DNA of 64,000 nucleotides, from contig NZ_VKKY01000001.1 of the NCBI RefSeq assembly GCF_008271695.1, positions 1 to 64,000 on the forward strand, given 5' to 3'. A program made the position numbers and the translations under genes. Shown in pieces: positions 7,528 to 57,451 of the stretch (position 1 is the first letter of the stretch; the number at the start of each line of letters is the position of its first letter). The notes under the pieces were generated by a model. The model searched no databases. It was not told where the DNA came from and saw nothing but the letters and a program-made list of their open reading frames with translations. Source of the DNA: Rufibacter hautae. Its GTDB lineage: Bacteria > Bacteroidota > Bacteroidia > Cytophagales > Hymenobacteraceae.

Positions 7528-7609
7528 GCGGATGTGGCGAAATTGGTAGACGCACTAGACTTAGGATCTAGCGCTGCGAGGCATGGGGGTTCGAGTCCCT
7601 CCATCCGCA
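7528..7609 (+). tRNA. tRNA-Leu (anticodon TAG)
   Basis: Acceptor arms GCGGATG (7528-7534) and CATCCGC (7602-7608) pair perfectly. The anticodon stem CTAGA/TCTAG encloses the loop CTTAGGA, giving anticodon TAG at 7562-7564. A long variable arm (class II) and the T-loop GTTCGAGT fit leucine. CCA is not encoded. It reads CUN leucine codons. Confidence 0.96.
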
Positions 7610-52213: not shown

Positions 52214-52606
52214 TTTCTGCCCTCCTCAGAGAGGCAGGCGTGCAAGGTTCAGCAGGTGAATATCCGGTTTCAGGTGGGTAAATTCTTTCCCTGCGCAAAA
52301 ACACCTTCAACACCAATAGGGTTAGGTGCCTTCTCTCTGTCTTTACATCAGAGGTTTGAGACCAAAGATTGTTCAGAAGCTTCTTTCCAGAAATGAGTCA
52401 AAAAATTCTTGTCTCTTTCATCCGCAAAAAAGGCAGCCTCAGTTTCGGTTTCTTCGGCTTCATCCTGGTTTTAAGCCTTTTAACAAACCATTAACATACA
52501 ACCAAGCAACGTTTTACCCAAATTTGCATCTATATAATCAAAAGGGATAACCCAAAAGAGGGCAACTCCTTCTAAAAAAGTTTAAAAATTTTAACCATAA
52601 AAAAAC
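52214..52606. other. Intergenic region, about 390 bp
   Basis: No gene, RNA or promoter of the standard form was recognised. Small frames on the plus strand have composition unlike neighbouring genes. Confidence 0.4.
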
Positions 52607-53187: not shown

Positions 53188-53244
53188 TATATAAATAGCA
53201 CTATATCTCTAAGGGACTTGGGGCGAGTTCGTCGTTGCTTTACC

Positions 53245-53341
53245 CGGTTCACTCCTTGTTTTGCTGGTTTCAGGCAGGAAAAGGCCCGCTTCCTCTGGTT
53301 ATGGTTGGCGTAGGCGCAAAACCACTGCATATTTGTATCAC
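53245..53341 (+). repeat. Shared promoter block, copy A
   Basis: 97 bp that align without gaps to 57156-57252 at roughly 80 percent by eye. The last 40 bp, GCAAAA-CACTGCATATTTGTATCAC, are almost identical. It carries the promoter of candidate RNA A. Confidence 0.8.
53305..53335 (+). promoter_or_regulatory. Promoter of candidate small RNA A
   Basis: TTG (53305-53307), 20-base spacer, CATATTTG (53328-53335), one base from the TAnnTTTG consensus. Spacing and -7 sequence are the same at the second locus. Confidence 0.6.
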
Positions 53342-53485
53342 CAGTCAGGCAGAAAGCGGCTGAGTCTTCTCCCAGAGAATGAATCCCCACCGCCTGAAAG
53401 GTTGCTGAGACAACTCAGCTCTTAAAAGAGAATTAGGTTTTGTTTGTTAGTTTGGTGTAAGGGGCCCGGTTTTTCCGGGCTTTTT
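53342..53485 (+). ncRNA. Candidate small RNA A
   Basis: Predicted transcript of about 144 nt between a conserved promoter and terminator. It can fold into TCAGGC/GCCTGA (53345-53350 with 53392-53397), a GCTGAG-ACAA-CTCAGC hairpin (about 53404-53419) and the 3' terminator. No credible reading frame is present. The 3' 49 nt are identical to RNA B, while the middle is different. The expression and target are unknown. Confidence 0.55.
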
Positions 53486-53492
53486 CATTTTC
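53437..53492 (+). repeat. Identical 56-nt 3' block, copy A
   Basis: Bases 53437-53492 are identical to 57333-57388. The block contains a T/G-rich single strand (GTTTGTTAGTTTGGTGTAAG) and the terminator. Confidence 0.85.
53464..53485 (+). terminator. Terminator of candidate RNA A
   Basis: GCCCGG, loop TTTTT, CCGGGC, then five T. Identical at the second locus. Confidence 0.8.
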
Positions 53493-53516
53493 AGGCCTTA
53501 CCAAACGCACCGGTTC

Positions 53517-53555
53517 CGTTTTCCTGCCCTTTTCTGAAAATCGGTTCTAAAACAG
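53517..53555. repeat. Interspersed 39-bp palindrome, copy 16
   Basis: CCGTTTTCCTGCCC left arm, centre TTTTCTGAAAA, right arm TCGGTTCTAAAACAG. It begins 32 bp after the RNA A terminator, the same distance as at RNA B. Confidence 0.75.
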
Positions 53556-53611
53556 GCTCACAATGAATAACCTTTCTTAACAGCAAAGCTGGAAGGGTCG
53601 TTAAGGTATTC

Positions 53612-54625
53612 TTACCATAGATTGCTGGGGCTTACGGCCCGCCGATGGTTGAGCAAGCGCACGCCCAGCAGCAATTCATGGCTGCCGGCTCCCTCCCGGC
53701 TTACGTCACCGGTGCCCAGGTCATAGGCATAGCTGATTTCAAACATAGAGTTGAGGGATAAGCCTGCCAAGGCCGCAAAACTCTCTCCCTGCCGGTAAGA
53801 ACCTCCCAGCCAGAACCGGTTATCATAGATGGCCTTTAGGTTGTAATCCAGGGAGACAGGCAAAGGCCGCATCCATTTCATAAGCACCGAGGGGACCAAC
53901 GCAACCTCTGGCGATATGTTCAGTTTATAGGCACCGGTCACAAAGTAGTGCGGCAGAAACTTTGTTTCCTTTTGGCTGGAAAGATCCTGCCCCAGCAACT
54001 GGGCGCCAGAAACACCCGCGTAGAAGTTCTGGGAGTAGAGCCAAAGCCCTAGGGAGAAGTTGGGGTTAATAGAGGACCGGCCCGTGTTCACCAAATCCGC
54101 AGGATCAGCGAATGTCACCTTGTCTGCCCGGAAAGATTGCCGCAGGAACCCTGCAGAGGCGCCGGCTGAAAGTTTCATTTTTGCGTTCAGCCACAGATGG
54201 TAAGCATAAGAGGCATTCACCTCGGTGCGGACAAAGGGCCCGATACGGTCATACAAGATGCTACCTCCCACGCCATGGTGCGGCTTGTGCTTCCGGTGGG
54301 TTCCGTACTGTTTAGGCGTGGGCGCGAAGTCTCCTTGCTTGTTGTCTGCCTCGTTCAGGATAGAAGACGGATTGTTCAGCCCTAGTTTGGTGTGCCCGGT
54401 GAGATACAGCGTGAGCGGCGCACCATCAATACCCACCCATTGGCTCCGGCTGCTGAGTTTCAAATCCAGATAGTCTTCAATGCCGGTAATGGCAGGGTTC
54501 AGTACATAGTTGTTGAGCATGTACTGCGTGTGTTGGGGCCGCTGCTGCGCCGTCAAGGATAAAGATACGCCGAAGAGTAAGCCGCCCAGCAGCAGCATTC
54601 TGGTCATTGGGTTCCGGAAGTTCAT
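53612..54625 (-). CDS. PorP/SprF-family type IX secretion membrane protein
   Basis: 337 residues with a signal peptide ending SLTAQQ (residue 27). The N-terminal mature motif QQRPQHTQYMLNNYVLNPAITGIEDYLD is the family hallmark (shown split: QYMLNNYVLNPA near 35-46). The rest is a beta-barrel-like protein ending in NHRRAVSPSNLW. Such proteins anchor or pass type IX secretion cargos to the surface. It overlaps the cargo gene upstream by 4 bp, which supports a dedicated cargo-partner pair. Confidence 0.9.
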   Translation of the reverse strand: MNFRNPMTRMLLLGGLLFGVSLSLTAQQRPQHTQYMLNNYVLNPAITGIEDYLDLKLSSRSQWVGIDGAPLTLYLTGHTKLGLNNPSSILNEADNKQGDFAPTPKQYGTHRKHKPHHGVGGSILYDRIGPFVRTEVNASYAYHLWLNAKMKLSAGASAGFLRQSFRADKVTFADPADLVNTGRSSINPNFSLGLWLYSQNFYAGVSGAQLLGQDLSSQKETKFLPHYFVTGAYKLNISPEVALVPSVLMKWMRPLPVSLDYNLKAIYDNRFWLGGSYRQGESFAALAGLSLNSMFEISYAYDLGTGDVSREGAGSHELLLGVRLLNHRRAVSPSNLW

Positions 54626-56679
54626 CTTACAATAGAAACAGAACCCGTCAGGGTACGGCCCTGGTCAAGGTTGAGGTGGTAGAAATAAGTCCCTACGGGC
54701 AGCGGTTTTCCTTTCTGGGTACCGTTCCAGTCGTTGCGGTAGCCTTTTGACTCAAAGACGTTTCCGCCCCATCGGTCAAAGACACGAAGGGTAGCATTGG
54801 GATAGCTGAAGATGTTGGTGATTTCCCACGTCTCATTTGTGCCATCGCCATTAGGAGAGAAAGCCGTAGGAATAACCACGTTTTTGGTGACGGTGACGGT
54901 GACCGTGGCCTGGTTCTCGCATCCCTGGGCATCTTGCGCAGTGACGGTGTAGGTAGTGGTTTCCTGGGGCTGGGCCTTGGTAGTTGCGCCAGAAGTATTG
55001 CTCAAACCCATGCTTGGCTGCCAAGAATAGGAAACCCCGCCGCTCGCCTGCAACTCTGTGCTCTGCCCCAAGTTGATGGTCACATCGGGCCCAGCCTGTA
55101 TCAAGGGTAACGCCTGGATGATGGCTTCTACCGGGGCTCTGGGGCCTTCGCAGCCGTTCTGCACCACCGAGACATAGTACGTGGTACTCTTCACCAGATC
55201 CGGAGTCTTGAATATCCCGATGGGGCTTTCCTGGAGGGGAACCGTGGCAGAAGCGGCGTCATACCACCGGAAGGCCTCCACAGCAGTGCTACTCTCTGCT
55301 TTTAACGTCACGCTGCCCGGTCCGCAATTGGTGGCACTTGTCACCGATGGGGCGAGCGGCAATGCTTTCACGGTGACAGTCAGGTTGTTGGTCGTGAGCA
55401 AGGCACCACAGGCGTTGAGGACATCGGCGGAGTACTGCCCAGCCTCCTGCACCTCCAGCGTATTGGTACTCACGAGGCCGCCCACCGCTTGGCCGTTCCT
55501 TCGCCACTGGTACATGTAGTTTTCACCTTGGGTAGCGGTGAGTTGGGTTTTACTTCCGGCGCAGATGACCAGCGCTCCATTGGCCTGCAGAGTGGGCGTG
55601 GCCATAGGTGGGCAGGCAACTTGCATGGTCACGGTAGCGGTGGCGCATTTGGTGTAGCATTGGTCCGAGGCGCTTTCGCATACTTCGTACACAAAGGTGT
55701 CAGCCCCGGTATAGCCCCGGTTAGCCGTGTAAATGACCTGGTTTTCGAAAATAGTGGTGGTTCCATGCAGTGGCGGCGTCACTACCCTGGTCACCCGGAT
55801 AGGTTCGTTTTTGGTGTGGAGGTCGTTCTGCATCACGGGCAGCGTGGCTGGCTTCAAAGGTTGGGCCTGCCCTTGGTCATTGCGGGCCTCAGGCTTGCTG
55901 GCAGGGTCAATGATGCAAATGGTTTGTTCGTTCTGGAATCCGCCCGTAGAGCCGGTGAAACCATAGTACACTTCTTTGGCTCCCGCAAAGACATTCTTCA
56001 CCAGATCGTCCTGGTGGCTGAAGCGGCGTTTGCCGTCAAAGAAAAGCTGCAGTTCTTTGGTGGCAGGGTTCCAGGTGATTTTGTAGGTGTGGCAGCGGTT
56101 ATCTTCCACGTTGGCGTTGTCTGGGTCAATGAAAACCGGGGGCAGTTTGGGGGTGCTTACTTTCCCGTCATACACCACCGTGGTGTGGTCCTGGGGGATA
56201 TCACCGGTTACCGAAACGCCGCCAGTAATAGAGGTGTTGTCAAAGGTATCAAACTCAATGCCCACGGAGGGAGAAATGGCCTGTCCCGCATTCGGGTTAA
56301 ACTCATCATAGCCAAACCCCAACCCACTGCCCGAACTTCCGCGGGCGTCCATGCCCCTGGGGTCATTTTGAAACACAAACGCTATGCCGTCTGCCCCATC
56401 ACCGTCTTTAGATCCTAAGAAGATGATAAAGGAAACCTCAAAGGGCTGGGTAAGGTCTATTTTGTCTTTCCACCAGATGGTGCCGAACCGGGAGGAGACA
56501 TCTGGAGTGATCCTGTAGCACGTGGAGGAAATTTGGGAGGCATCTCCCCTGGAGATGAACTGCCCCGCACTTGAGAAGGAAATGAACAGCAACAGGCAAA
56601 GGAGAAGCAGGGGCTGAACCGTTTTAGCTATACTATGTTTGCGTTGTGAAAACTGTTCTTTAAAGCAAAATGCCACCAT
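54622..56679 (-). CDS. Type IX secretion cargo with lectin-like domain and gliding-motility C-terminal domain
   Basis: 685 residues. Signal peptide ending SSAGQ (about residue 40); an alternative downstream start is possible. The first 230 residues resemble an L-type lectin/legume-lectin domain (GADGIAFVFQNDPRG, GIEFDTFDN, YKITWNPATKELQLFFDG). A Tyr/Asp-rich linker of Ig/cadherin-like repeats follows (about 300-600). The C-terminal CHU_C/type B sorting domain begins PTAFSPNGDGTNE and includes FDRWGGNVFES and LPVGTYFYHL. It is secreted through the type IX system and may adhere to carbohydrates. Paired with PorP/SprF. Confidence 0.88.
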   Translation of the reverse strand: MVAFCFKEQFSQRKHSIAKTVQPLLLLCLLLFISFSSAGQFISRGDASQISSTCYRITPDVSSRFGTIWWKDKIDLTQPFEVSFIIFLGSKDGDGADGIAFVFQNDPRGMDARGSSGSGLGFGYDEFNPNAGQAISPSVGIEFDTFDNTSITGGVSVTGDIPQDHTTVVYDGKVSTPKLPPVFIDPDNANVEDNRCHTYKITWNPATKELQLFFDGKRRFSHQDDLVKNVFAGAKEVYYGFTGSTGGFQNEQTICIIDPASKPEARNDQGQAQPLKPATLPVMQNDLHTKNEPIRVTRVVTPPLHGTTTIFENQVIYTANRGYTGADTFVYEVCESASDQCYTKCATATVTMQVACPPMATPTLQANGALVICAGSKTQLTATQGENYMYQWRRNGQAVGGLVSTNTLEVQEAGQYSADVLNACGALLTTNNLTVTVKALPLAPSVTSATNCGPGSVTLKAESSTAVEAFRWYDAASATVPLQESPIGIFKTPDLVKSTTYYVSVVQNGCEGPRAPVEAIIQALPLIQAGPDVTINLGQSTELQASGGVSYSWQPSMGLSNTSGATTKAQPQETTTYTVTAQDAQGCENQATVTVTVTKNVVIPTAFSPNGDGTNETWEITNIFSYPNATLRVFDRWGGNVFESKGYRNDWNGTQKGKPLPVGTYFYHLNLDQGRTLTGSVSIVR

Positions 56680-57155
56680 AGAGGGGAGGAGTTTATAACG
56701 ATTGTTAAGCGATGAAACACTAAAAGCGACCGCTCCTCCACTACACTCTCTCCTACCTTCTACAAAGGCAGCCCAGTTGCTCTTCCTTATAAAGAAAAGG
56801 ATAATTCGGTAAGATTCTCAATTTCAGAGGTAAAAAGATAAAAAGGCCGCTAAAACGGCCAAGCCCTTGGATAAGGCTCACCTATCCTCTTCCAGAAAGC
56901 CTTGGGAGACCAAAAATTCCAGTTCAGTCCGGTTCGTCAACTTTATACCGGGTTTTACACGGTTCATCAGAATTTAGAAGACAAAGCACAAGAAAGCTAT
57001 TTTTTCACCCGATGAAGATGTTTTTAGGCTTTTGGCTGCTGCAAACCTGATTTTTTGCGAACTGGTCATCTGTTTTTTGCTGCGTTTATCAGAAAATCTG
57101 GGATTTTGGATGGCCGATTCAGGTGCGGTTTTGTCCGGTTCACACCCCTATATTC
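56680..57155. other. Intergenic region upstream of candidate RNA B, about 475 bp
   Basis: It contains AT-rich sequence with repeated ACCGG/GGTTC fragments and no recognised promoter for the leftward cargo gene. Frames here are not credible genes. Confidence 0.4.
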
Positions 57156-57252
57156 CAGTTCACTCCGGCTTTGTCTGGTTTCAGACAGGAAAAAGGCCGT
57201 TTCCTCTTGTTTGGGTTGCCACCGGGGCAAAAGCACTGCATATTTGTATCAC
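57156..57252 (+). repeat. Shared promoter block, copy B
   Basis: The gapless 97-bp counterpart of 53245-53341, containing the promoter of candidate RNA B. Confidence 0.8.
57216..57246 (+). promoter_or_regulatory. Promoter of candidate small RNA B
   Basis: TTG (57216-57218), 20-base spacer, CATATTTG (57239-57246), the same arrangement as RNA A. Confidence 0.6.
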
Positions 57253-57381
57253 TAAACGAGACCACAGCCCCTGATTCCCTCTCAGCTGGCTGCTCTTCCC
57301 TCGGTCTCGTTCAGTATTTAGGTTTGTTTAAAGTTTTGTTTGTTAGTTTGGTGTAAGGGGCCCGGTTTTTCCGGGCTTTTT
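57253..57381 (+). ncRNA. Candidate small RNA B
   Basis: Predicted transcript of about 129 nt. A long arm AACGAGACC/GGTCTCGTT (57255-57263 with 57303-57311) encloses a nested hairpin CAGCC-c-CTGA/TCAG-ct-GGCTG with two C-rich unpaired stretches (TTCCCTC and CTTCCCTC). The middle is unlike RNA A, but the 3' end and terminator are identical. It lies upstream of the Rieske gene and ends 98 bp before it. Confidence 0.55.
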
Positions 57382-57388
57382 CATTTTC
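57333..57388 (+). repeat. Identical 56-nt 3' block, copy B
   Basis: Identical to 53437-53492, containing the terminator at 57360-57381. Confidence 0.85.
57360..57381 (+). terminator. Terminator of candidate RNA B
   Basis: GCCCGG, loop TTTTT, CCGGGC and five T. Confidence 0.8.
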
Positions 57389-57412
57389 GGGCTTTTCCAA
57401 ACCATTCCCTTC

Positions 57413-57451
57413 CATTTTCCCGCCGTTTTCCGTAAATCAGGTCCAAAACAG
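57413..57451. repeat. Interspersed 39-bp palindrome, copy 17
   Basis: CATTTTCCCGCCG left arm, centre TTTTCCGTAAA, right arm TCAGGTCCAAAACAG. It starts 32 bp after the RNA B terminator and 29 bp before the Rieske ATG. Confidence 0.75.

Follow-up and report, generated by a model that had tools for sequence, protein, structure and literature searches.

A pair of putative trans-acting small RNAs in Rufibacter with a common operator and a shared candidate 3' seed

Introduction

Two loci that share a promoter and a terminator but differ entirely in between raise the question of which part does the work. Such a pair, here called A and B, is found in the first 64,000 nucleotides of contig NZ_VKKY01000001.1 of Rufibacter hautae (assembly GCF_008271695.1), a stretch referred to below as the window. 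Rufibacter is an environmental lineage of Bacteroidota. The original prediction described a family of regulatory RNAs with common expression signals and a common 3' end, in which a variable 5' module might select the targets. Conservation, synteny, an operator model and covariation support the first part of this prediction well. The second part is unsupported, in that the complement that recurs at start codons belongs, on examination of seed pairing, to the constant 3' block. A and B are probably sibling trans-acting small RNAs (sRNAs) with a private operator and a common 3' seed, which would repress carbon and nitrogen mRNAs at the translation start; this reading draws on the family, its synteny, RNA structure, operator conservation and complementarity, all of them features of sequence.

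The two loci and their conservation

Both loci lie on the + strand, with 3.9 kb between them. The regions at 53245-53341 and 57156-57252 align without gaps and are identical at 78 of 97 bp, each containing a promoter with TTG, 20 nt and CATATTTG, which we take to be of the Bacteroidota type. The middles (95 nt in A and 80 nt in B) align no better than shuffled sequences, 84 of 500 shuffles being equal, and the loci rejoin in an identical 56-nt block (53437-53492 and 57333-57388) that contains an intrinsic terminator. All of this is exactly as had been described. The expected transcripts of about 144 and 129 nt are replaced by modelled RNAs of 151 and 136 nt (about 133-165 nt over all copies), with the start placed at TCAC and the end directly past the terminator. 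The claim that neither middle holds a reading frame is true of the RNAs themselves, as no open reading frame (ORF) of at least 12 codons lies fully within either, but some ORFs of 66-80 aa begin ahead of promoter B and extend into locus B. As far as examined, then, the two RNAs of the window are not part of a longer coding region.

The element was searched for in 98 genomes, 16 of the genus and 82 of other genera. It is present in all 16 genomes of the Rufibacter group, and this conservation in relatives excludes a chance origin; part of the block matched ten named genomes, nine of Rufibacter and one of Sabulibacter ruber. BLAST of the 82 other-genus genomes gave two matches, to the terminator alone, and the region upstream of the Rieske gene in six other-genus genomes looked different on reading. 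A tandem pair occurs in 13 of the 16 genomes and a single copy in three (G006, G012 and G013), for 29 copies in total. The flanks are constant in all 16, with a 141-aa protein without a Pfam match on the left and a Rieske protein on the right, such that the element occupies one syntenic locus per genome, which, as far as examined, argues against an insertion element. The copies of a pair stand 413-677 bp from each other in nine genomes, and in four (G000, G003, G008 and G014) the distance is about 3.9 kb. In those four, the copies are separated by a PorP/SprF gene and by a lectin/CHU_C gene with a type IX secretion signal (53612-56679, - strand, in the window), neither of which lies inside the other nine pairs. 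In a tree of the copies, of which 11 of 26 inner branches are weak, the A-type and B-type copies separate in 11 paired genomes, that is, all but G001 and G007; the two G007 copies are mutual nearest neighbors, and G001A clusters with the single copy of G012.

The original prediction had suggested a search for further copies of the 56-nt block. BLAST with the whole element gave no third full copy in the 5.84-Mb genome, and the 38 other listed matches are of 16-43 nt. Of these short matches, 27 map to a dispersed repeat that occurs throughout the genome and lies directly past terminator A (53509-53556), with a core like TTTTCTGAAAA...AAAACAGG. Rfam at its gathering cut-offs returned only a tRNA (7528-7609) in the window and no family for either RNA; a relaxed search, 6S included, gave E-values of 4.4 and worse, far under the gathering scores.

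A model of the element (R1) matched 26 of 200 genomes of the family, strongly in the 16 of the genus and weakly (E 1e-4 to 0.01) in ten others. Four of the ten weak matches were inspected and proved to be ends of protein genes with a U/G-rich tract and a terminator. Three are the same gene, presumably catalase-like from its C-terminal sequence, in three genomes of a sister genus (L179:355-471(-), L180:1501-1619(-) and L182:1501-1615(+)). The U/G-rich tract before the terminator of these genes may be a relative, in a 3' untranslated region, of the segment proposed below as a seed.

RNA structure and the invariant segment

An outer helix, P1 (13 pairs), and a hairpin that it encloses, P2 (9 pairs), are supported by compensatory changes across 12 B-type copies. 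In the alignment, 88.6% of the cells are paired versus 82.0% (sd 0.9) after shuffling, both sides have changed in nine pairs versus 3.0 in the shuffles, and the covariation score was reached by none of 500 shuffles. Versions of the structure slid along the alignment pair 23.5-43.2% of cells, a comparison biased toward the unslid position because the structure was derived from a single row, G008B. A test that needs no alignment gives the same picture, in that the pairing of a 5' arm is stronger with the downstream region of the same RNA than with that of another copy. The energies for own versus swapped arms are -13.3 versus -10.3 kcal/mol for 11 A copies, -15.7 versus -12.5 for 12 B copies and -10.1 versus -7.3 for six others, with permutation fractions (20,000 permutations) of 0, 0.0002 and 0.0026, respectively.

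Another hairpin, P3, is found in A-type and older copies and not in the 12 B copies. With arms chosen by eye from folds, 84 of 85 cells are paired in 17 copies, versus 62.5 (sd 3.5) when the arms are swapped. The evidence for P3 from an 11-row alignment is weaker (94.3% paired, with 14 of 500 shuffles equal). The alignments, A1 and A2, omit G001A, G007A and G007B. The covariation check suggested for the middles thus found compensatory changes in P1 and P2 and less in P3. The strong structure that had been claimed for each middle shows in the single-sequence folding energy of B (z -3.15), whereas that of A is unexceptional (z -1.23); the structural support for the RNAs comes from the comparison of species.

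The 5' parts are structured and fast-evolving, with the outer helix retained. Directly before the terminator lies a 21-nt U/G-rich segment, TTTTGTTTGTTAGTTTGGTGT, without a single change over the 29 copies. Apart from it, only portions of the terminator stem are invariant; drift is seen both in the terminator loop and in the 5' module. This pattern bears on two other explanations. A functionless duplicated non-coding repeat, or the remnant of a mobile element, would fit the presence of two copies, the resemblance of the G007 pair to a separate duplication and the type IX secretion gene pair found between the copies in four genomes. It is hardly credible, however, as other copies in the genome were not found, synteny is fixed in 16 genomes and an invariant segment stands beside drifting sequence, and it is largely contradicted by the compensatory changes. 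The RNAs might instead be structural or bind polymerase in the manner of 6S RNA, or act through the 5' module, with the 3' block serving termination or stability only. An outer helix with an inner hairpin and the lack of an Rfam match are compatible with this. Unlike the 3' segment, though, the 5' module has diverged strongly from A to B and from species to species, and the long hairpin with a central bubble that characterizes 6S RNA is absent; such roles are very unlikely.

Glutamate synthase as a predicted target

A pattern that approximates the complement of the invariant segment, here called the seed, was searched for in the R. hautae genome, with the reversed pattern as a control. Ten places were found besides the two sRNA genes, and the control gave 25 matches, the places of which were not listed. 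Five of the ten places (L187, L188, L189, L192 and L194) are at start codons in the orientation required for pairing, and L187 is the gene for glutamate synthase, gltB. Orthologs of gltB are found in 14 of the 16 genomes, and 12 of the 14 pair with the seed at -18.7 kcal/mol or better. In G011, the leader CCCUUACCCAAACGAACAAACAAAGGA-AUG pairs with the seed over 26 nt at -27.7.

The pairing was compared with shuffles of either partner. Shuffled leaders did equally well in none or one of 500 cases in eight genomes, and in 5 (G008), 7 (G000), 11 (G009), 30 (G002) and 43 (G005) of 500 in others. The mean over 13 orthologs is -22.6 kcal/mol, versus -13.6 (sd 1.9, best -19.6) for 120 dinucleotide-shuffled seeds, none of which is equal; this mean omits G012, where the start is unaligned, and would be about -21.8 with it. 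In eight held-out genomes, those in which gltB was not among the finds of the later pattern search, the orthologs average -22.0, and again none of 120 shuffled seeds is equal. Ten other gene families of the locus give mean pairing of -9.1 to -14.0. These comparisons make gltB the best-supported of the predicted targets.

The gltB leader (L266 and orthologs) has, in 10 of 14 orthologs, a predicted hairpin of its own, CUGAUUCA/UGAAUCAG, with a 3' arm that starts within the start codon. In the predicted fold of the same ten, the complement of the seed sits in the hairpin loop. This hairpin may be a control element in its own right.

Other candidate targets and points against targeting

A wider search of the 16 genomes, with a 17-nt pattern and at most one mismatch, found 84 places: the 29 sRNA genes and 55 others. 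In 37 of the 55, the match contains, or is followed within 40 bases by, an ATG that opens at least 70 codons, versus 9 of 34 for the reversed pattern, which is only a rough control (Fisher p 2e-4, a value that is too small because orthologs are counted repeatedly). Three of the nine control matches are less than clean, as G004:779517 and G003:347390 coincide with test matches and G007:57899 pairs at -19.9, and all three were counted as controls. The 37 places represent about 21 different genes. Those found in several species are gltB (five), an S8 peptidase lipoprotein (four), a galactonate-type MFS transporter, acs and a membrane pyrophosphatase (three each), and a DUF485 gene, an M28 peptidase and a sugar MFS transporter (two each).

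After gltB, the next predicted targets are acs, which encodes acetyl-CoA synthetase, and a DUF485 gene that lies upstream of acs. In eight fetched genome stretches, acs was present in seven, and all seven pair with the seed just before the ATG (-16.8 to -29.9, mean -21.6, versus -14.9 for shuffled seeds). Seven DUF485 orthologs pair at -11.2 to -24.0 (mean -19.2, versus -14.5 for shuffled seeds). The means in held-out genomes are -19.9 for acs (four genomes) and -17.6 for DUF485 (five genomes), each equaled by 1 of 120 shuffled seeds, which with about 21 candidate genes is supportive, not decisive. Transporters and exported peptidases are further candidates. In R. hautae itself, pairing does not stand out for the galactonate-type transporter (-17.1) or the pyrophosphatase (-15.9). 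An arginase-family gene (L194:1490-1520) has a start codon that overlaps a site like the seed complement, with three mismatches. The sugar transporter L192 was rejected as a target, given that the position of the site is not kept among the 12 of 16 orthologs that could be placed. Iron sparing was also considered as a common theme for the targets, and acs and the sugar transporters do not fit it.

Besides the repeated counting of orthologs, the number of candidate genes and the loss of L192, several observations weigh against a role for the seed in targeting. The genomes G006 and G013 keep the sRNA, and gltB gave no match in either at E 1e-20; among the orthologs, gltB of G012 is unmatched (-10.3) and that of G005 pairs weakly (-16.2). 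Over 557 sampled start regions of R. hautae, strong pairing (-18 or better) occurs 21 times, versus 20.7 (sd 6.5) for shuffled seeds, which is no excess. Against these regions gltB ranks 8th, acs 4th and DUF485 32nd, such that prediction from a single genome would not pick them and the case rests on the orthologs. Start regions are A-rich, so U/G-rich RNAs appear as binders. Moreover, the seed is free in minimum-energy folds of the full-length RNA in only 6 of 13 B copies (G000, G002, G008, G011, G014 and G015), and in the remaining B copies and most A copies it is partly paired, often to the 5' end of the same RNA.

The 5' end CACYAA may have two alternative partners: the right arm of the same RNA, which forms P1 and leaves the seed free, or the seed, which is then hidden. 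RNAalifold on the B alignment favored the second pairing, but most such pairs never vary, so it was kept only as a possible alternative state.

Several of these points would be expected if the RNAs are real and bind a protein through the invariant segment, either to titrate the protein or as RNAs bound by a chaperone, with the match to start regions a by-product of composition. In favor of this are the invariance and U/G-rich composition of the segment, the A-richness of start regions and the lack of an excess of pairing over the 557 sampled. Such a mode of action is nevertheless unlikely: the gltB pairing includes CCCUUACC, a part that is not A-rich, it is far above that of shuffled seeds and leaders in most orthologs, and the held-out genomes agree with it.

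Promoter and operator

The TTG and CATATTTG elements are conserved in the 29 copies, with a single mismatch in the second element of one copy. Upstream of them lie repeated TTC[AG] boxes, which, counted from the end of CATATTTGTA, are at -131 in 12 of 29 copies, at -110 in 22 and at -90 and -69 in all 29, followed by a TTC box at -48 in 27. The intervals from -131 to -48 are 21, 20, 21 and 21 bp, a spacing that suits regulators binding side by side at two-turn intervals. LytTR-type operators consist of direct repeats that have a GTT core and recur about every 21 bp; the spacing of the boxes fits this type, but the G before TT varies among them.

A sequence model of the operator, built from the 29 sRNA promoters, recovers the same 29 from the 16 genomes of the genus at E 7e-12 or better, and the next match has an E-value of 0.0078. 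The lack of another good match suggests that the operator serves the sRNA genes alone, or other genes in much weaker form. A simpler two-box pattern has 26 matches in the R. hautae genome, versus 13 for a control pattern. Within the window, a box pair of this kind matches at only two places, where 0.06 are expected: one at RNA gene A and one at 52246-52272, upstream of the left neighbor gene, where the boxes read GGTTCA...GGTTTCA and are 21-22 bp apart. The features of both loci are collected in Table 1.

Table 1. Positions in the window of the features of loci A and B
Feature	Position	Strand	Description
Operator, copy A	53228..53293	+	Boxes TTCG 53228, TTCA 53248, TTCA 53269, TTCC 53290; spacing 20-21 bp
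Promoter, copy A	53305..53335	+	TTG, 20 nt, CATATTTG; conserved across copies
sRNA A, as modelled	53338..53488	+	151 nt; ends from model
Hairpin P3, sRNA A	53404..53419	+	Comparative pairing
U/G-rich seed candidate, sRNA A	53437..53458	+	22 nt, the last 21 invariant in 29 copies
Intrinsic terminator, sRNA A	53459..53485	+	Sequence and folding; missed by a simple terminator scan
Operator, copy B	57118..57204	+	Boxes TTCA 57118, 57139, 57159, 57180, TTCC 57201; spacing 20-21 bp
Promoter, copy B	57216..57246	+	TTG, 20 nt, CATATTTG
sRNA B, as modelled	57249..57384	+	136 nt; ends from model
Outer helix P1, sRNA B	57251..57315	+	Encloses hairpin P2 (57265-57292, loop UUCCCUC); folding and covariation
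U/G-rich seed candidate, sRNA B	57333..57354	+	Same sequence as the seed of A
Intrinsic terminator, sRNA B	57355..57381	+	Sequence and folding; missed by a simple terminator scan

Proposed mechanism and related systems

Under the reading that A and B are sibling sRNAs with a common seed, each would be expressed from its own copy of a dedicated operator with helical phasing, and both genes would be switched by a regulator whose molecules bind next to one another at intervals of about two helical turns. Each RNA would consist of a structured 5' module closed by P1, then the U/G-rich seed, then the terminator. The seed is predicted to pair with an A/C-rich stretch that covers the start codon of the target or lies just ahead of it, a position from which it would block ribosome loading. 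Carbon and nitrogen acquisition would as a result come under post-transcriptional control, by repression most likely of gltB and probably of acs and uptake genes. A more ambitious version, in which the pair is a hub of Rufibacter catabolite control, is doubtful: a dedicated regulator would read carbon or nitrogen status via the phased operator of up to five boxes, private to these genes, and a ligand or protein on the 5' modules would set the exposure of the seed separately in A and B.

Repression at start regions has precedents in Bacteroides thetaiotaomicron. GibS represses at start regions without a Shine-Dalgarno sequence (PMC7366714) and FopS also represses at start regions (PMC11697453), which by analogy makes the same mechanism plausible here. 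GibS resembles the Rufibacter RNAs in its size of about 145 nt, intergenic position, intrinsic terminator and pairing with initiation regions of metabolic mRNAs, and differs in that it is a conserved single sRNA of Bacteroides with other targets and a seed in its unstructured 5' part (PMC7366714). FopS comprises 14 paralogous sRNAs of about 65-70 nt that share a 5' seed and are bound by RbpB (PMC11697453). The likeness to FopS lies in paralogous sRNAs of Bacteroidota with one common segment and a diverging rest, in pairing beside start codons and in nutrient-uptake targets, which in Rufibacter are predicted (PMC11697453). The Rufibacter RNAs, by contrast, occur in one or two copies at one syntenic locus, have a modelled length of about 133-165 nt and are preceded by a dedicated phased operator. 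A 5' seed like that of GibS and FopS was not found in them; what the copies have in common sits at the 3' end, ahead of the terminator, and the 5' modules differ. Given the opposite placement of the common part and the different size and number of the RNAs, they are not classed with FopS.

Other comparisons are more distant. PrrF1/PrrF2, OmrA/OmrB and AbcR1/AbcR2 are likewise co-located tandem duplicates, the common sequence of which suggests common targets (PMC4211561); in the Rufibacter pair, sharing is limited to the promoter, 3' segment and terminator, and the 5' modules cannot be aligned. IsrR of Staphylococcus is an iron-sparing sRNA under Fur control that pairs through C-rich regions and acts on gltB2 (PMC9410917). 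It shares with the Rufibacter RNAs a glutamate synthase mRNA as target, predicted in the case of Rufibacter, and unpaired C-rich regions, comparable to the P2 loops UUCCCUC of the B type, and differs in its Fur control, its phylum and the use of the C-rich regions for pairing (PMC9410917); no sequence relation is claimed. Literature searches on sRNAs of Rufibacter, Hymenobacter and Cytophagales, and on sRNAs with glutamate synthase or acetyl-CoA synthetase, gave no title on this pair among the matches listed, with most subscription papers outside their coverage.

The characterized trans-acting RNAs of Bacteroidota in the papers compared come from Bacteroides. If the reading proposed here is true, A and B would be a conserved sRNA pair of Bacteroidota outside Bacteroides, with gltB as a named target, in a group from which regulatory RNAs are known in small number only. 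The arrangement of a constant 3' segment and a diverging 5' module would be the opposite of that described for FopS, and the dedicated operator could lead to its regulator.

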